DNA from: Prevotella sp. UBA3208
Lineage (GTDB): Bacteria; Bacteroidota; Bacteroidia; Bacteroidales; Bacteroidaceae
Length of the DNA stretch: 7,765 nt
Direction: 5' to 3'
NCBI GenBank assembly: GCA_002363695.1
Contig: DEWO01000127.1
Location: forward strand, 1 to 7,765
The notes below the pieces were generated by a model. The model was given only the letters and a program-made list of their open reading frames with translations. It was not told where the DNA came from and ran no database searches. The translations under genes and the position numbers were made by a program. The first letter of the stretch is position 1. Each line of letters starts with the position of its first letter. Below, piece after piece: positions 218 to 7,581 of this stretch.

Positions 218-1174
218 ATGGGTATTTTCGGTTTTTTTAGTAAGGATAAGAAGGAAACGCTGGACAAGGGCTTGGAGAAAACCAAGACCAGCGTGTTCGA
301 CAAGTTAGCCCGTGCTGTGGCTGGCAAGTCTAAGGTTGATGACGACGTGCTCGACAACTTGGAGGAAGTGTTGATTACGTCGGATGTAGGCGTAGAAACT
401 ACATTGAAGATTATTGAGCGCATTGAGGCACGTGTGGCTCGCGACAAGTACGTCTCAACCAATGAACTGAATGCTATATTGCGTGACGAGATAGCCTCAT
501 TATTGGCTGAAAACAATAGCGAGGATAATGACAACTGGGACCTTCCTGCAGATCATAAGCCCTACGTGATACTTGTCGTTGGTGTCAATGGAGTGGGCAA
601 AACCACCACTATAGGTAAACTGGCCTGGCAGTTCAAGCAGGCTGGCAAGAAAGTCTATCTGGGTGCTGCCGATACCTTCCGTGCTGCTGCTGTCGAGCAA
701 TTGTGCATCTGGGGCGAGCGCGTAGGTGTGCCTGTGGTCAAGCAGCAGATGGGGTCAGACCCCGCCTCGGTGGCTTTCGACACCCTGCAGAGCGCTAAGG
801 CAAACGGTGCCGACGTGGTACTGATAGATACGGCAGGGCGACTGCACAACAAGGTTGGTCTGATGAACGAGCTGAAGAAGATTAAGGAGGTGATGAAGAA
901 GGTGCTGCCCGATGCCCCTGATGAGGTGATGCTCGTGCTGGATGGCTCAACGGGACAGAATGCCTTCGAGCAGGCCAAGCAGTTCTCGGCTGTCACACAG
1001 ATAACCTCGCTGGCCATTACTAAACTCGACGGTACTGCCAAGGGTGGAGTCGTTATCGGCATTAGCGACCAGTTGAAGGTGCCTGTGAAGTACATCGGTT
1101 TGGGTGAGGGTATGAAAGACCTGCAACTCTTCAACAAGACACAGTTTGTTGACTCATTGTTCAAGCATGAATAA
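218..1174 (+). CDS. ftsY: Signal recognition particle receptor FtsY (SRP GTPase)
   Basis: FtsY is the membrane-associated GTPase that receives ribosome-SRP complexes and hands nascent membrane proteins to the Sec translocon. The protein has 318 residues. A helical N domain (about 20-110) is followed by the G domain. The motifs visible are G1 GVNGVGKTTT (122-131), the DTFRAAA motif (152-158), G3 DTAGR (204-208), G4 TKLDG (268-272) and a C-terminal GLGEG. The long acidic A domain of E. coli FtsY is absent, leaving a short amphipathic start (MGIFGFFSKDKK), as in many Bacteroidota. I chose ATG 218 because the frame extends upstream only through the terminator and promoter, and because MGIFGFF is a typical FtsY start. 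The 3' end overlaps rimO by 8 bases, so the two are probably cotranscribed. Confidence 0.97.
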   Translation: MGIFGFFSKDKKETLDKGLEKTKTSVFDKLARAVAGKSKVDDDVLDNLEEVLITSDVGVETTLKIIERIEARVARDKYVSTNELNAILRDEIASLLAENNSEDNDNWDLPADHKPYVILVVGVNGVGKTTTIGKLAWQFKQAGKKVYLGAADTFRAAAVEQLCIWGERVGVPVVKQQMGSDPASVAFDTLQSAKANGADVVLIDTAGRLHNKVGLMNELKKIKEVMKKVLPDAPDEVMLVLDGSTGQNAFEQAKQFSAVTQITSLAITKLDGTAKGGVVIGISDQLKVPVKYIGLGEGMKDLQLFNKTQFVDSLFKHE

Positions 1175-2456
1175 GCCAACCATAGATATTATCACGCTGG
1201 GGTGCTCCAAGAATCTGGTAGATTCAGAGAACCTGATGGGACTCTTCGAGGCCAATGGCTATCATGTCACCCATGATGCTGAGGAGCCTCAGGGGGACAT
1301 TGCCGTGGTGAACACCTGTGGATTCATTGAGGATGCCAAGCAAGAGAGCATAGATACCATTTTGGAATTGGCTCAGGCCAAAGAAGAGGGGAGGTTGCAG
1401 AAACTATATGTGATGGGCTGTCTGTCAGAGCGCTATCTGGCGGATCTGGAGAAGGAAATTCCCGAAGTGGATGGCTGGTACGGCAAGTTCAACTATAAGC
1501 AGTTGTTGAAAGACCTCTCGGCTGAAGCTGTTTGCACGGGTTGCCGCCACATTACCACGCCCAGACACTATGCTTATCTGAAGATTTCAGAAGGCTGCGA
1601 CCGCCATTGTGCCTATTGTGCCATTCCGTTGATTACGGGTCGTCACCAGAGTCGTCCGATGAAGGACATTCTGGACGAGGTGCGCTATCTGGTCAGTCAG
1701 GGCACCAAGGAGTTTCAGGTCATAGCCCAGGAGTTGACCTACTATGGTGTCGACTTGGACGGCAAGCAGCACATAGCAGAGTTGATAGAGCAGATGGCCG
1801 ATATAGAGGGCGTTGAGTGGATTCGTCTGCACTATGCCTATCCGGCTCATTTCCCATGGGACCTGTTGCGCGTTATGCGTGAGAAGAAGAACGTCTGCAA
1901 CTATCTGGACATTGCCTTGCAGCACATCTCGGATCACATGTTGAGCCGAATGCAGCGTCATGTGACCAAGGAAGAGACCTACGAGTTGATTCGCCGTATG
2001 CGCAAGGAAGTGCCAGGCATTCATCTCCGTACCACGCTGATGGTGGGGTTCCCTGGAGAGACTGATGAAGACTTCCGCGAACTGTTGGAGTTTACCAAAT
2101 GGGCTCGTTTTGAACGAATGGGAGCCTTTGCCTATTCTGAAGAGGACGGCACCTATTCAGCCCTTCACTATGAGGACGATGTACCTGCAGAGGTCAAGCA
2201 ACAGCGTCTGGATAAGCTCATGCGCGTTCAGCAGAACATCTCGACAGAGATAGAAGCAGCAAAGATAGGCCAAACCCTGCTTGTGGTCGTCGACCGTCAG
2301 GAGGGTGACTGGTATGTAGGCCGTAGCGAGTTCTGCTCACCCGAGGTTGATCCAGAGGTGCTGATACCCATTGACGAAGGATTGACCATCGGTGAGTTCT
2401 ATCCAGTCCGCGTGACGGACGCTGAGGAGTTTGACTTATACGCGACCACCCAATAA
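1167..2456 (+). CDS. rimO: Ribosomal protein uS12 methylthiotransferase RimO
   Basis: RimO is a radical-SAM enzyme that uses two 4Fe-4S clusters and S-adenosylmethionine to add a methylthio group to a conserved aspartate of ribosomal protein S12. The protein has 429 residues, a normal length. The N-terminal UPF0004 domain carries the three cluster cysteines: C13 (TLGCSKN), C51 (NTCGF) and C85 (MGCLSER). The radical-SAM motif CDRHCAYC supplies C143, C147 and C150. A TRAM domain fills about 363-429. The TLGCSKNLVDSE start and the EGCDRHCAYCAIP motif favour RimO over MiaB or MtaB. ATG 1167 gives the proper start MNKPTIDIITLGCSKN and overlaps ftsY in the form ATGAATAA, suggesting translational coupling. 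An additional CTGC pair (C122, C125) lies between the two domains. Confidence 0.96.
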   Translation: MNKPTIDIITLGCSKNLVDSENLMGLFEANGYHVTHDAEEPQGDIAVVNTCGFIEDAKQESIDTILELAQAKEEGRLQKLYVMGCLSERYLADLEKEIPEVDGWYGKFNYKQLLKDLSAEAVCTGCRHITTPRHYAYLKISEGCDRHCAYCAIPLITGRHQSRPMKDILDEVRYLVSQGTKEFQVIAQELTYYGVDLDGKQHIAELIEQMADIEGVEWIRLHYAYPAHFPWDLLRVMREKKNVCNYLDIALQHISDHMLSRMQRHVTKEETYELIRRMRKEVPGIHLRTTLMVGFPGETDEDFRELLEFTKWARFERMGAFAYSEEDGTYSALHYEDDVPAEVKQQRLDKLMRVQQNISTEIEAAKIGQTLLVVVDRQEGDWYVGRSEFCSPEVDPEVLIPIDEGLTIGEFYPVRVTDAEEFDLYATTQ

Positions 2457-2489
2457 ACGCATCATTAACGTACAAAGCATGATTAGCTA

Positions 2490-2771
2490 ATGAATAACAA
2501 GGAATTTATTAACGAGTTGGCTGAACGTACAGGTTACAGTTCCAAAGACACCCAAAAGCTGGTAGATAACATCATCAATGCCATGGGGGATGCTTTTCAG
2601 GAGGACCATGCCGTGCTGGTGCCTAACTTTGGGACCTTCGAACCTAAGAAGAAACTGGAGCGAGTCATCGTCAATCCTGCTTCGGGGCAGCGTATGTTGG
2701 TGCCGCCCAAACTGGTGTTGGGTTTCAAACCCAACCAGACGTGGAAGGATAAACTGAAAGGAGGAGAGTAG
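2490..2771 (+). CDS. HU family DNA-binding protein
   Basis: This is a small, soluble nucleoid protein of 93 residues, the usual HU/IHF length. It has the N-terminal helical dimerisation region (about 3-40), the conserved turn PNFGTF (45-50), a basic beta-arm with KKKLERVIVNPASGQ (53-67) that keeps the proline of the RNPxTG DNA-kinking motif (P63), and the closing strand and helix LGFKPNQTWKDKL (77-89). It should bind and bend duplex DNA as a dimer with little sequence specificity. It lies 33 bases after rimO, with no terminator between them, so it may share that transcript. Its last codons (KGGE) also form the Shine-Dalgarno of the next HU-type gene, 2 bases downstream. The two might form a heterodimer, but that is inference. 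Confidence 0.92.
   Translation: MNNKEFINELAERTGYSSKDTQKLVDNIINAMGDAFQEDHAVLVPNFGTFEPKKKLERVIVNPASGQRMLVPPKLVLGFKPNQTWKDKLKGGE
2757..2764 (+). promoter_or_regulatory. Unusually strong Shine-Dalgarno before the HU-LysM gene
   Basis: AAAGGAGG lies 9 bases before ATG 2774 and is perfectly complementary to the CCTCCTTT tail of 16S rRNA. It is embedded in the final codons of the upstream HU gene. Bacteroidota usually initiate translation without such a site: of the other starts seen here (ftsY, rimO, HU, moxR, DUF58, the DUF4381-like gene and batA), none has a comparable site at the right distance. Confidence 0.6.
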
Positions 2772-2773
2772 TC

Positions 2774-3988
2774 ATGGGAAAGCTGACTATACAAGAGATA
2801 GCGTCTGTGCTGACCGAGAAGAATGGCTTTGAGAAGAGCGAGGCCAACAAGTTCGTATCGGCCATGTTTTCGTTGATACAAGAGCGTTTGGAAACTGATC
2901 AACTGGTAAAAATCAAAGGTCTCGGCACGTTCAAGATTATCGGTGTGGAGGCCCGCGAGAGCATCAGCGTCCGTACAGGCGAGCGCGTCACCATTAATGG
3001 GCATTCCAAGGTGTCGTTCACGCCCGATGCCACCATGAAGGAGTTGGTCAACAAGCCCTTCTCCCAGTTCGAGACCGTAGTGCTGAACGATGGGGTGGAG
3101 TTTGATGACATCAAAGACGAGCCGGAAGGAGATGAGCCCGTTGAGGACGCATCCCAGGAATCTGCTCCCGTGCAACCCTTGATAGAGGTCGTGGAAGAGG
3201 ATACTATCCCTCAGGAAGCGGAAGAACCGTTGCCGGAATCGTCTTCGTCTGAGGAACCTTTGCCAGAGGTGTCTGAGGAACCATTGTTAGAGGTGGTGGA
3301 AGAACCGTCGTCTGAGTTGGCAGAAAAAGCAGAACCTCAGGAGGCTGCAGTTATACAACCTCAGAGAATAGAAGAGCCTGTAGCCAGACAGACTGTCGAA
3401 CCTGCTCCTGTTGCTAATTCCCATTCGATAGGACATTGGATATTGTATGCTGTTCTTTCATTGCTATTGATGGCTGTTTCGGGCTTTGCTGGCTATTATT
3501 ATGGCAGCTACAAGACACTGATGTCCACGCCTCAGCCCGATACCGTTGTGGTACACGATACGGTGACCGCAGTCCCTGTAGACACCATTCCTGCACAGCA
3601 GACTCTGTCAGAGCAGCCTGACGTGAAGCCCGAACCTCAGAAACCTGCAGCAGAAGTGCCCAAGGTAGAGCCCGTTCAGGCTCCTGCCAAACCACAGCAG
3701 ACAGCAGCACAGGCTGAGAGAAAGGACACCAAGCCTGACGAGGACTTTGACAAGTATGCCGAGAAGGACTCCCGTGTTCGCTTGGGTGCCTATCGCATTG
3801 TCGGTCTCTCCCACGAGGTGAAGGTGCAGAAGGGGCAGACTTTCTACAGCATCTGTCGAGGCAACCTCGGTCCGGACATGGAGTGCTATGTAGAAGTATA
3901 TAACAACCTGTCACAGAACCCCAAACTTAAAGAAGGTCAGATTATCAAGATTCCCAAGCTCCAGCTGAAGAAAAGACGCAAACAGTAG
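2774..3988 (+). CDS. Membrane-anchored HU domain protein with C-terminal LysM-like domain
   Basis: The protein has 404 residues. An HU-like domain occupies about 1-95, with the signature GLGTF at 49-53. In its beta-arm the usual NPxTG is replaced by SVRTGE (65-70), so the DNA-intercalating proline is missing. A long Glu/Pro-rich linker (about 105-215) contains near-repeats beginning EEP at 150, 160, 168 and 176. One hydrophobic segment (about 222-243, WILYAVLSLLLMAVSGFAGY) is a clear transmembrane helix with no signal peptide before it. A Pro/Gln/Lys-rich spacer (about 250-335) leads to a LysM-like domain (347-395: VKVQKGQTFYSICRGNLG, then VEVYNNLSQNPKLKEGQIIKIP) and a basic tail KKRRKQ. The likely topology is HU in the cytoplasm and LysM in the periplasm, so the protein could tether the nucleoid to the cell wall; this is inferred from domain order only. 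It is probably cotranslated with the upstream HU. Confidence 0.85.
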   Translation: MGKLTIQEIASVLTEKNGFEKSEANKFVSAMFSLIQERLETDQLVKIKGLGTFKIIGVEARESISVRTGERVTINGHSKVSFTPDATMKELVNKPFSQFETVVLNDGVEFDDIKDEPEGDEPVEDASQESAPVQPLIEVVEEDTIPQEAEEPLPESSSSEEPLPEVSEEPLLEVVEEPSSELAEKAEPQEAAVIQPQRIEEPVARQTVEPAPVANSHSIGHWILYAVLSLLLMAVSGFAGYYYGSYKTLMSTPQPDTVVVHDTVTAVPVDTIPAQQTLSEQPDVKPEPQKPAAEVPKVEPVQAPAKPQQTAAQAERKDTKPDEDFDKYAEKDSRVRLGAYRIVGLSHEVKVQKGQTFYSICRGNLGPDMECYVEVYNNLSQNPKLKEGQIIKIPKLQLKKRRKQ

Positions 3989-4049
3989 TTCTATGTGTCA
4001 CTGACTGTTAACTGCATGTTAACGTTCCGTAAAAAGTGGCATCCTTTAA

Positions 4050-4415
4050 GTTATATTCTTCTGTACGCTGACCGTCTATCTCGAAGAATTGATGCCGTTT
4101 CAGCATTTCTTCATGAGTCTCACCATTGCCGGCTTCATCCGCAACGGTGTGGTTGACAGCATCTGCGGCGGTGTCTACAGCTATCTGTTCCGTTATCATG
4201 TGGCCGACAATTTGGTTCGTGCTTTGCAACCGATAGACGTCACTCAGAGTATTATGATGGCTGTGAAGTATCTCTATGGTGTGGTTTGTCTGGCCGGCTG
4301 TTTCTTCTTGCTGCTTCTTATGTTGTGGCACGTGCAGCCTGTGCGTTCCACTCTGAAGCACATACCCTATTGGAACAAGATAGGTCGCGACATGCGCAGA
4401 GAGTTATCATCATAA
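4050..4415 (+). pseudogene. Remnant: C-terminal end of a membrane transporter, probably MFS type
   Basis: After an in-frame TAA (4047-4049), the frame stays open for about 120 codons to TAA 4413-4415. It reads VIFFCTLTVYLEELMPFQHF, then SLTIAGFIRNGVVDSICGGVYSYLFRYHVADN, then a final hydrophobic helix (VKYLYGVVCLAGCFFLLLLMLW) and a charged tail (RSTLKHIPYWNKIGRDMRRE). This resembles the last part of the 14-helix MFS drug-efflux transporters of Bacteroidota as I remember them. The first in-frame ATG (4092) falls inside the protein-like stretch, so most of an expected protein of over 500 residues is missing. No transporter sequence remains upstream, where the HU-LysM gene ends at 3988. The best reading is a gene that lost its 5' part by deletion. 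A small expressed one-helix membrane protein is possible but less likely. Confidence 0.5.
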
Positions 4416-4634: not shown

Positions 4635-5630
4635 ATGGCAGAAGCTATTGACATCCGCGAACTGAATGTGCGGATAGAACAACAGAGTGGATTCGTGACC
4701 AACCTCGTGACGGGCATGGATCAGGTGATTGTAGGACAGAAGCATTTGGTGGACTCATTGCTGATTGGTCTGCTGAGTGATGGTAATATTCTGCTGGAGG
4801 GCGTTCCTGGTTTGGCAAAGACGCTGGCTATCAAGACGCTGGCGCAGCTGATTGACGCAACCTATAGCCGTATTCAGTTTACGCCTGACCTGTTGCCTGC
4901 CGACGTGACGGGTACGATGATATATTCGCAGAAGGACGAGCGGTTCCAGGTGAAGAAGGGACCGGTGTTTGCCAACTTCGTGCTGGCTGATGAAATCAAC
5001 CGTGCTCCGGCCAAGGTGCAGAGTGCCTTGCTGGAGGCCATGCAGGAGAAGCAGGTAACTATTGGCAGCGACACCTTCGAACTGCCGAACCCGTTCCTGG
5101 TGATGGCTACGCAGAACCCCATCGAGCAGGAGGGTACCTATCCGTTGCCTGAGGCCCAGATGGACCGTTTCATGCTGAAGGTGGTCATCGGCTATCCTAC
5201 CATCGAGGAGGAGAAGAAGATTATCCGCGAGAACATTGGCAGCGGTTTGCCCAAGGTGACGCCTGTGACCACGGCTGACGAGATTGTCAAGGCCCGTCAG
5301 GTGGTGCGCGAGGTTTATCTGGACGAGAAGATTGAACAGTATATTGCCGACATCGTGTTTGCTACCCGTTTCCCTGACCGTTATGGCCTGAAGGATATGA
5401 AGGACATGATTTCGTTTGGTGGTTCGCCCCGTGCCAGCATCAACCTGGCAAAGGCTGCCCGTGCCTATGCCTTCATCAAACGCCGTGGCTACGTGGTGCC
5501 CGAGGACGTACGTGCCGTGGCTCACGACGTGCTGCGCCATCGTATCGGCCTGACCTACGAGGCTGAGGCTTCGAATGTAACCAGCGAGGAGATTGTCTCG
5601 AAGATTGTCAACAAGGTGGAAGTGCCCTAA
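4635..5630 (+). CDS. MoxR family AAA+ ATPase
   Basis: This is a cytoplasmic AAA+ ATPase of 331 residues, the normal length for the family, thought to act as a chaperone-like partner of vWA-domain proteins encoded beside it. Visible motifs are Walker A GVPGLAKT (56-63), Walker B LADEIN (117-122), sensor 1 in MATQNP (N161), the MoxR signature EQEGTYPLPEAQMDRF (164-179) containing the likely arginine finger R178, and sensor 2 in GGSPRAS (R266). The C-terminal helical lid follows, about 195-325. It is the first gene after the promoter and heads the moxR-DUF58-bat operon. In Bacteroides fragilis the equivalent bat locus was linked to aerotolerance, and in other bacteria such loci are linked to envelope stress; the role here is inferred from these. 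Confidence 0.95.
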   Translation: MAEAIDIRELNVRIEQQSGFVTNLVTGMDQVIVGQKHLVDSLLIGLLSDGNILLEGVPGLAKTLAIKTLAQLIDATYSRIQFTPDLLPADVTGTMIYSQKDERFQVKKGPVFANFVLADEINRAPAKVQSALLEAMQEKQVTIGSDTFELPNPFLVMATQNPIEQEGTYPLPEAQMDRFMLKVVIGYPTIEEEKKIIRENIGSGLPKVTPVTTADEIVKARQVVREVYLDEKIEQYIADIVFATRFPDRYGLKDMKDMISFGGSPRASINLAKAARAYAFIKRRGYVVPEDVRAVAHDVLRHRIGLTYEAEASNVTSEEIVSKIVNKVEVP

Positions 5631-5680
5631 AAACTAGTCAAACTAGTAATAACTAGTCAAACTAGCATATGGAAACTAGC
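5631..5680 (+). repeat. CTAG-centred short tandem repeat array
   Basis: AACTAGT occurs at 5632-5638, 5641-5647 and 5651-5657, with AACTAGC at 5660-5666 and again at 5674-5680 (inside the first codons of the next gene). The first four can be read as two 16-base copies of AACTAGTCAAACTAG(T/C) separated by AAT. ACTAGT is its own reverse complement, so each full unit is also a small palindrome. By eye I found no other CTAG in the window. The array fills the whole gap between moxR and the DUF58 gene. Confidence 0.8.
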
Positions 5681-6538
5681 GAGATATTAAAGAAAGTACG
5701 GAAGATAGAGATTAAGGCTCGTGGCCTGAGCTCAAACGTCTTCGCTGGCCAGTACCACTCGGCCTTCAAGGGTAGGGGTATGGCCTTCTCGGAGGTGCGT
5801 GAGTATCAGTATGGCGACGATGTTCGCGATATTGACTGGAATGTGACGGCCCGTTTTCATCGCCCTTATGTCAAGGTGTTCGAGGAGGAGCGCGAGTTGA
5901 CGGTGATGCTGCTGATAGACGTCAGCGGCTCGCTGGATTTCGGTACGCAGTGCCAGATGAAGCGTGATATGGTGACGGAAATTGCTGCTACGATAGCCTT
6001 CTCGGCCATCCAGAATAACGACAAGATTGGCGTGGTGTTCTTCTCGGACCGCATAGAGAAGTATATTCCCCCCAAGAAGGGTCGCAAGCACATTCTCTAT
6101 ATCATCCGTGAACTGCTGGACTTCAAGCCGGAATCCAAGCGTACCGATGTGAAGCAGGTGCTGGAGTTCCTGACCAGCGTGGCGAAACGCCGTTGTACGG
6201 CCTTTGTGCTGAGCGACTTCTACGACCGCCAGGACTTCTTGCAGCCGTTGCAGATAGCCAATCGTAAGCACGACGTGGTTGCTCTGCAGGTCTATGACCT
6301 CCGTGCTCGTGAACTGCCTGATGTTGGCTTGATGCGCGTGGTGGATGCCGAGACGGGATATGAACAGTATATCGACACGTCAAGCAAACAGCTGCGCCAA
6401 GCCCACCAGAAGTACTGGAACAACTGCCAGCAGCAGTTGCGCGAAACTATGAATAAGAGCAATGTCGATCTGGTGAGCATAGCTACCAATGAGGACTATG
6501 TAAAGGCATTGCTGATGCTGTTTAAACAACGAAGCTGA
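5669..6538 (+). CDS. DUF58 domain protein (vWA-like), MoxR partner
   Basis: The protein has 289 residues, normal for the short DUF58 type. It begins with a KIEIKARGLSSNVFAGQYHS segment, then the family signature EYQYGDDVRDIDWNVTAR (45-62), then a von Willebrand A-like fold. The metal-ion-dependent adhesion motif DVSGS (84-88) is intact, and LSDF provides a later conserved turn. No signal peptide or membrane helix is visible, so it should be cytoplasmic, bound to the ATPase or to the membrane Bat proteins. It begins 38 bases after moxR, within the CTAG repeat array. Its stop overlaps the next start in TGATG, which predicts coupled translation. The molecular function of the family is not established. 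Confidence 0.93.
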   Translation: METSEILKKVRKIEIKARGLSSNVFAGQYHSAFKGRGMAFSEVREYQYGDDVRDIDWNVTARFHRPYVKVFEEERELTVMLLIDVSGSLDFGTQCQMKRDMVTEIAATIAFSAIQNNDKIGVVFFSDRIEKYIPPKKGRKHILYIIRELLDFKPESKRTDVKQVLEFLTSVAKRRCTAFVLSDFYDRQDFLQPLQIANRKHDVVALQVYDLRARELPDVGLMRVVDAETGYEQYIDTSSKQLRQAHQKYWNNCQQQLRETMNKSNVDLVSIATNEDYVKALLMLFKQRS

Positions 6539-7581
6539 TGAGAAGATATATATCATTAATTATTCTGATTGCCAGTTCGTTGTGCTGTTTGGCTCAATCG
6601 TCTGTTACGGCTAAGATAGAGCCGATAGAGATGATGATTGGTGAACAGGCAACGGTGACGCTGACCGTTCAGGCAACTGACGATGCGAAGGTGGAATGGC
6701 CCACTTTCCAGCCCCGTCAGATGCTGGCACCCGGTGTTGAGGTGCTGAATGTACAACGCCCGTCAGACCACACGATGGTCATCACGCTGACCTCGTTTGA
6801 CGGTAACCTGTATCATCTGCCTCCCTTCAAGGTGAAGATTAACGGCAAGGAACAACAGAGTGCTGACTTGGCGCTGAAAGTCGTTGAAGTAGAGGTTGAC
6901 ACCACCCAACTGAACAAGTTCTTCCCCCCCAAGGACGTACAGGACAATCCCTTCCAGTGGAGCGACTGGAGTCTGTCGTTCTGGCTCAGTGTGCTGCTTT
7001 TGATGTTGACGGCCCTGTGCGGTTATCTTTACCTTCGTCTGCGCGACAACAAGCCCGTTATTTCACACATCAAGATTGTGAAGCGCTTGTTGCCCCACCA
7101 GAAGGCCATGAAGGAGATTGAGCAGATCAAGGCAGACCGCATGGTGGCATCCGAGAATGCCAAGGAGTACTATACCAAACTGACAGACACCCTGCGTAAG
7201 TATATTGAGGAACGCTATGGCTTCTCCGCCATGGAGATGACCAGTTCCGAGATTATAGAGCGTCTGACTGCTGCTGGTGACCAGCAGTCGCTGGACGAGT
7301 TGCACCAGCTGTTTATGACCGCTGATTTGGTGAAGTTTGCCAAATACTCTACGATGATCAACGAGAACGATGCCAATCTGGTCAGTGCCATCGACTTCAT
7401 CAACCAGACCAAGCTGGAGAACCTGCCTGTGGAAGAGGTGCAGAAGCCCGTGCTGTCGGAGGCCGACCAGCGCTCGCAGAAAGAGCGTCGCGTGCTGAAG
7501 ATGGTCATCTGGGGCATTGTGGCAGTTGCCGTGCTGCTGTTCTGCTATATTGTGTATAGCATCTGGCAGTTGTTAGTGTGA
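6538..7581 (+). CDS. Membrane protein of the Bat operon (BatD-like N-terminus, DUF4381-like layout)
   Basis: The protein has 347 residues. A signal peptide (MRRYISLIILIASSLCCLAQ, probable cleavage after A19) leads to a beta-rich periplasmic domain (about 21-140) that resembles the N-terminal part of BatD-type proteins (KIEPIEMMIGEQATVTLTVQ). A transmembrane helix follows (about 146-166), then a cytoplasmic helical region (about 167-320) with YYTKLTDTLRKYIEERYGFS (214-233), the kind of sequence seen in DUF4381 proteins, and a second transmembrane helix at the very C-terminus (about 322-343). The predicted topology is periplasm, cytoplasm, then a C-terminus outside. The CC near the cleavage site is not a proper lipobox because the residue before the first Cys is Leu. 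It is joined to DUF58 by TGATG and lies between it and batA, as in other Bacteroidota. I am sure of the layout, less so of the family name. Confidence 0.75.
   Translation: MRRYISLIILIASSLCCLAQSSVTAKIEPIEMMIGEQATVTLTVQATDDAKVEWPTFQPRQMLAPGVEVLNVQRPSDHTMVITLTSFDGNLYHLPPFKVKINGKEQQSADLALKVVEVEVDTTQLNKFFPPKDVQDNPFQWSDWSLSFWLSVLLLMLTALCGYLYLRLRDNKPVISHIKIVKRLLPHQKAMKEIEQIKADRMVASENAKEYYTKLTDTLRKYIEERYGFSAMEMTSSEIIERLTAAGDQQSLDELHQLFMTADLVKFAKYSTMINENDANLVSAIDFINQTKLENLPVEEVQKPVLSEADQRSQKERRVLKMVIWGIVAVAVLLFCYIVYSIWQLLV

Follow-up and report, generated by a model that had tools for sequence, protein, structure and literature searches.

We found that a gene fusing an HU/IHF-type domain to a transmembrane helix and a LysM-fold domain lies directly behind a gene for a small HU/IHF-family protein, in Prevotella and in its near and distant relatives. 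We give roughly even chances to the reading that the two products pair as an IHF-like heterodimer, one subunit of which is anchored in the wall, and so would tether the nucleoid to peptidoglycan. A preliminary description of the same DNA had proposed a tether made of the fusion protein by itself; the small HU gene directly upstream was absent from it. We find its interpretation plausible, but it should be attached to a conserved pair of genes and not to one protein. Chromosome placement and separation in Bacteroidota have, to our knowledge, been little explored. If true, the tether would connect chromosome and cell wall physically and directly, with an HU dimer split between a soluble half that grips DNA and a half anchored in the wall. 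If the pair holds DNA to the wall, it would also give access, through just two genes, to the coupling of nucleoid and envelope in the major gut genera Bacteroides and Prevotella.

The window (the whole stretch of DNA that was analysed, 7,765 bases) contains the following features.

227-1174: ftsY.
1170..2456, + strand: rimO (NCBIfam TIGR01125, 447.7 bits), upstream context outside the proposed tether.
2490..2771, + strand: small HU/IHF-family gene (93 aa; Pfam PF00216, 7.9e-23), the proposed partner subunit, with the 'NP' arm tip kept.
2774-3988, + strand: HU-transmembrane-LysM fusion gene, 404 codons, with the six parts that follow.
2774..3055, + strand: HU/IHF domain, residues 1-94 (Pfam PF00216, 8.8e-20), with the arm tip SISVRTG, which lacks the wedging proline.
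3050..3103, + strand: conserved extension after the HU fold, residues 93-110, NKPFSQFETVVLNDGVEF in the window (from the alignment of relatives).
3104..3427, + strand: acidic proline-rich linker, predicted cytoplasmic, residues 111-218 (from composition).
3437..3505, + strand: single transmembrane helix, residues 222-244 (hydropathy peak 1.97 at 222-240).
3506..3748, + strand: proline-rich linker, predicted periplasmic, residues 245-325 (from composition; variable in alignments).
3749..3967, + strand: LysM-fold domain with a short helical lead-in, residues 326-398, core ~347-398 (from AlphaFold2, Foldseek and profile search).
4635-7581: moxR, DUF58 and a BatD-like gene, starting ~650 bases past the fusion; the BatD score is below the cut-off.

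Between the pair and moxR, positions 4008-4415 hold two overlapping frames of 117 and 108 aa on opposite strands. No Pfam or NCBIfam family scored above its cut-off for the + strand frame, and both look like chance frames. ARAGORN found no tRNA in the window and an Rfam scan found no family.

Relatives were compared in three groups, 130 loci in all: the 80 closest, titled Prevotella, Prevotellaceae or uncultured Bacteroidales plus one Xylanibacter and one 'uncultured bacterium' (here called Prevotella-type), 25 from a first Bacteroidales draw, and 25 distant loci from outside the order draw. The 130 loci do not stand for 130 independent events: L106 duplicates L036, which leaves at most 129 distinct loci, and closely related species are among them. 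For the distant member L150, the relatives with a named organism are Balneola, a separate phylum in the NCBI taxonomy.

The preliminary description had seen an HU-like domain, an acidic linker, one transmembrane helix and a LysM-like domain in one 404-residue frame, and each of these was borne out. Residues 5-93 match PF00216 with 71.2 bits (E 8.8e-20; cut-off 22.4), which places the fusion in the HU/IHF family; the small HU scores 81 bits against the same cut-off. A profile built from the fusion HU domains of 27 relatives had IHF alpha chains as its best solved match (6.3e-12). In the extension that follows the HU fold, N93 is invariant and P95 and F96 are conserved in at least 90% of 25 Bacteroidales members, with looser conservation in the distant group; this stretch may be a partner-binding surface. 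The linker (residues 111-215) carries 33 D/E and 16 P for a net charge of -29, and its mean D/E fraction is 0.28-0.33 across the three groups of relatives. Hydropathy analysis gave exactly one peak of at least 1.6 in 121 of the 130 fusion proteins and two peaks in none; the remaining nine peak at 1.09-1.53, and the best peak of L035 lies away from the expected segment. A low-confidence model of the full-length protein also has a helix there, at 219-250. We rejected the idea of a signal peptide and an all-periplasmic protein, since the HU domain starts at the N-terminus and the sole hydrophobic segment is internal. A chimera created by assembly error was set aside because the same architecture recurs in many genomes.

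The identity of the C-terminal domain is not obvious from its sequence, because the window protein scores only 13.2 bits (E 0.09) against the Pfam LysM family (PF01476), below the cut-off of 20.9. Its predicted structure was more informative. AlphaFold2 folded residues 320-404 with a mean pLDDT of 87.1 and a pTM of 0.76 into strand-helix-helix-strand after a short helix, the beta-alpha-alpha-beta order of LysM. The Foldseek top 20 and the VIA-align top ranks were mostly LysM chains; the best Foldseek E was 0.034, and no Foldseek match for this domain had E < 0.001. The LysM assignment of the preliminary description is upheld by this fold and by these ranks. A profile of the C-terminal domain found LysM chains in the PDB (best 1.8e-11), with the potassium-binding protein Kbp second-best at 1.5e-10. 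A second profile, from eight sequences (seven distant ones and L190), found Kbp best at 4.6e-11 and then other LysM chains, and it matched the first C-terminal profile with 98.6% probability. Ecp6 and a T. thermophilus NlpC/P60 protein, which are wall or chitin binders, were among the other close structural or profile matches. Single-sequence searches of relatives with the Pfam family were uneven: five of eight chosen relatives exceeded the cut-off, none of ten other Bacteroidales matched at E 0.01, and two of ten further sequences (nine distant ones and L190) gave weak matches at E 0.1 that stayed under the cut-off. The Prevotella domain diverges from the LysM consensus, and this blindness of Pfam may be why the HU-LysM design escaped notice. 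At G234:C22:5187-5840, in a genome of the Prevotella-type genus, an 887-aa frame carries two LysM-type matches, and a third lies on another contig.

We examined the charges that flank the helix. K/R were in excess on the N side in 80 of 121 proteins and on the other side in 22, with 19 ties; in the distant group the split was 23 to 1 with one tie. The window protein itself gives no guide, with no K/R among the 16 residues that precede the helix and one among the 16 that follow it. The bias in its relatives suggests that HU is inside and LysM outside, as proposed earlier, and LysM outside is the coherent reading because HU must be inside to meet DNA.

How widespread is the design? For the genus to which G002 belongs (Prevotella sp. 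tc2-28, which carries locus L036), 200 genomes were sampled, and the C-terminal profile matched in 169 of them at 1e-6. In the Bacteroides/Prevotella family, that of G168, a genome encoding the Bacteroides ihuae protein at 100% identity, a diverse HU profile at 1e-18 matched in 125 of 151 sampled genomes; this count rests on the HU profile, over open frames of 175-639 residues whose C-termini were left unread. An even draw across the order Bacteroidales gave a long-frame match in 27 of 198 genomes, separated from solo HU genes by a gap (3.7e-22 versus 2.2e-16), and an even draw across the phylum gave one in 28 of 247 (8.2e-22 versus 1.6e-18). Recognised by motif and by eye, a LysM-type domain lies near the C-terminus in 25/25 loci of the first order draw, in two added loci and in 25/25 distant loci; in many relatives more sequence follows it. 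Judged from these matches, the design is widespread in the Bacteroides/Prevotella family; at the scale of order and phylum its distribution is patchy. Among the homologue matches listed, 115 of 120 align over at least 98% of the query, and 308 of 333 pattern-matched genome stretches were confirmed relatives. Full-length homologues, confirmed relatives and the joint recurrence of the HU, transmembrane and LysM parts across families thus argue that the architecture is more than chance. At the Bacteroides ihuae locus (L085), a 412-aa frame (1814-3052) lies just 3' of the fusion and, when read by eye, resembles a transposase.

The small HU gene lies directly 5' of the fusion at 130 of 130 loci, with a gap of -17 to +14 nt; at 120 of them the two genes overlap by 1-11 nt or are spaced by 1-4 nt, and the two added loci (L189 and L190) show the same adjacency. 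Other neighbours are also well kept near Prevotella: at the Prevotella-type loci the small HU gene is found in 80/80, rimO in 80/80 and ftsY in 78/80, and moxR is present in 46/80, as it is in 16/25 loci of the first Bacteroidales draw. Neither rimO nor moxR was detected within the 1.5 kb flanks of the 25 distant loci. All 25 keep the upstream small HU gene, so the pairing is not mere synteny. As a control, we tabulated the adjacency of all HU-family matches in eight genomes (60 matches). The small HU and the fusion were adjacent in seven of the seven fusion-bearing genomes, and the only other close HU neighbours were two matches each in G561 and G569; the neighbouring pair in G569 coincides with a match to PF18175 (CCDC81-type). 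Of the tether proposed earlier, the domain order stands, and the likely unit is the pair and not the single polypeptide.

In classical HU and IHF, both subunits carry a proline at the HU P63 position, which wedges into DNA and helps to kink it. The small HU has this proline at 130 of 130 loci. In the fusion it is present at 0/80 Prevotella-type loci, 1/25 loci of the first Bacteroidales draw and 25/25 distant loci. This makes 104 losses among the 105 Bacteroidales loci counted, whereas L189 and L190, which joined the set afterwards, retain the proline; in the order draw, three of the 27 fusion members do (L127, L189 and L190), so the loss is not uniform. In Prevotella-type fusions the position is V in 79 of 80 and I in one; the window fusion has V. 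By its sequence, the window fusion keeps the HU fold but its arm is altered. The arms also differ in mean charge, +3.7 to +4.7 for the small HU and -0.7 to +0.2 for the fusion, the distant group included; the reference arms are +4 in E. coli HU beta and +3 in IHF alpha. The preliminary description had treated the fusion HU domain as a DNA binder. The HU fold is there; self-sufficient binding is improbable, because the wedging proline is lost and the charge is about neutral, and in most Bacteroidales the fusion HU may no longer touch DNA. Proline and arm charge fit a pair whose anchored member lost some of its contact with DNA and whose other member retained it.

To what extent do the two HU domains change together? 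With rimO and ftsY removed, their distance matrices correlated with a partial r of 0.69 (p 0.001; n 75 of 80), versus 0.08 (p 0.16) and 0.05 (p 0.22) for ftsY against either HU given rimO. The LysM end of the fusion correlated at 0.41 with the small HU and at 0.40 with its own HU end. Against a four-gene background (rimO, ftsY, moxR and DUF58; n 44), the HU-HU correlation was 0.56, and batD correlated with the fusion HU at 0.36 (p 0.001) and with the small HU at 0.24 (p 0.002). Because batD correlates too, the signal is not specific, and the HU-HU correlation is support for the pair and not proof.

Taken together, these results suggest the following mechanism. The small HU and the fusion HU domain would pair on DNA in an IHF-like manner, the small HU giving most of the charge of the DNA-gripping arms and, for the majority of Bacteroidales, the sole proline that wedges into DNA. 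From there the fusion would run through the acidic spacer, one transmembrane helix and a flexible periplasmic stretch to a LysM domain seated on peptidoglycan glycan. The nucleoid would thus be held to the cell wall, most likely so that the chromosome is positioned or spread relative to the growing envelope. The acidic spacer could compete with DNA for the HU pair, which would make the tether weak and reversible. We regard a nucleoid-to-wall tether as plausible, and the interpretation of the preliminary description as partly supported.

The same features can be read in other ways. In CCDC81 the HU fold has been proposed as a protein-protein module. If it were one here, the fusion could be a RodZ-like scaffold, a wall-anchored landmark that recruits cytoplasmic partners, the small HU among them, and tethers no DNA. 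The loss of the proline from the fusion at 104 of the 105 Bacteroidales loci counted and its nearly neutral arm would suit this, as would the strong conservation of the extension in Bacteroidales, which is what one expects of a partner-binding surface; the acidic linker also resembles the client-binding region of HubP, as described in PMC8789113. However, the small HU retains its proline everywhere together with a basic arm, and the distant fusions retain the proline too (25/25), so we hold the scaffold to be unlikely. A ToxR-like, membrane-bound gene regulator is quite unlikely. Here LysM would sense the state of the wall and the HU pair would bend DNA at particular promoters, in a layout that is known from such regulators (DNA-binding domain inside, one transmembrane helix, sensor-type domain outside); IHF-type proteins can bind specific sites. 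HU folds nonetheless usually bind with low specificity, LysM is a binding module for which no switch is known, and no shared target operon is suggested, since rimO and moxR were not found beside the distant members.

The remaining alternative concerns the wall end. LysM does not always mean wall binding, because Kbp, named as a potassium-binding protein, is among the closest solved profile matches in both searches. The domain might bind another ligand, dimerise or act in the cytoplasm as in Kbp, leaving a nucleoid protein that is attached to the membrane only, and the divergence of the Prevotella domain would sit well with this. Against it, the charge bias (80 versus 22 of 121 relatives) places the LysM side outside, and the wall or chitin binders Ecp6 and the NlpC/P60 protein are close matches as well; we think this reading very doubtful.

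Our search of the open-licence PMC literature found no HU-transmembrane-LysM protein; in PMC10434189, an HU gene and a LysM gene stand in separate table rows. The nearest working analogues are HubP and FimV, polar landmark proteins of gammaproteobacteria, which have a periplasmic LysM domain, one transmembrane helix and a highly acidic cytoplasmic region; the fusion has these domains and an acidic region, on membrane sides that are predicted from charge bias. PMC8789113 describes how HubP influences, via ParA1, where the origin of chromosome 1 lies, and PMC12918733 reports that the LysM of PpFimV binds peptidoglycan and that PpFimV is not involved in chromosome segregation. HubP contacts DNA via ParA1, whereas the fusion would do so via its own HU pair. 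Unlike HubP and FimV, the fusion has LysM at its C-terminal end and HU at its N-terminal end, and a Pfam scan at E 1 found no C-terminal TPR (FimV) domain in it, the chain ending in LysM. By analogy, the fusion may work like HubP/FimV without being a member of that family.

IHF and HU dimers, whose IHF alpha chains are the best solved relatives, also consist of two HU-fold subunits, which in the window are encoded by adjacent genes; they carry the proline in both subunits, whereas here one proposed subunit has a membrane-wall extension and, in most Bacteroidales, no wedging proline. RodZ likewise combines an inward-facing DNA-binding fold with one transmembrane helix and a periplasmic domain, but its fold is HTH and not HU, it contacts MreB and it has no LysM.

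Nearest in design is a Bacteroidota architecture of HU-CCDC81_bac_1, HU-CCDC81_bac_2 and SPOR (PF18174, PF18175 and PF05036), with N-terminal HU-type domains, a C-terminal domain of peptidoglycan-binding type and two HU units. A parallel HU-SPOR design had been mentioned in the preliminary description, and we did find it in the phylum: the full architecture was confirmed in three proteins (L159, L162 and L166). It holds both HU units in one chain, whereas the window pair has a separate small HU gene, and it ends in SPOR and belongs to another HU subfamily, whereas the window fusion ends in LysM. The window fusion scores 15.2 bits against PF18175, below the cut-off of 35, and so is not a HU-CCDC81_bac member; a search for SPOR in it gave no hit at E 1. 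Of the 247 phylum genomes, 47 had a PF18175 match that exceeded the cut-off. Among the 28 fusion-bearing phylum genomes PF18175 matched at E 1e-5 in 14 and above the cut-off in five, and L159 comes from G002, which also carries the LysM pair. Two parallel wall-ended HU designs thus occur in the phylum, partly within the same genomes. For the HU-CCDC81-SPOR type, Burroughs and colleagues reportedly predicted a chromosome-partition role in their 2017 survey of the HU superfamily. We advance tentatively, at somewhat less than even chances, that Bacteroidales and Balneola-type bacteria have a dedicated nucleoid-peptidoglycan tether, an HU/IHF-type heterodimer of a soluble subunit and a membrane-spanning, wall-binding one, which would work alongside another HU tether that ends in SPOR. 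Each of the two tethers may bind DNA to its own zone of the wall, LysM to general glycan and SPOR to septal denuded glycan.
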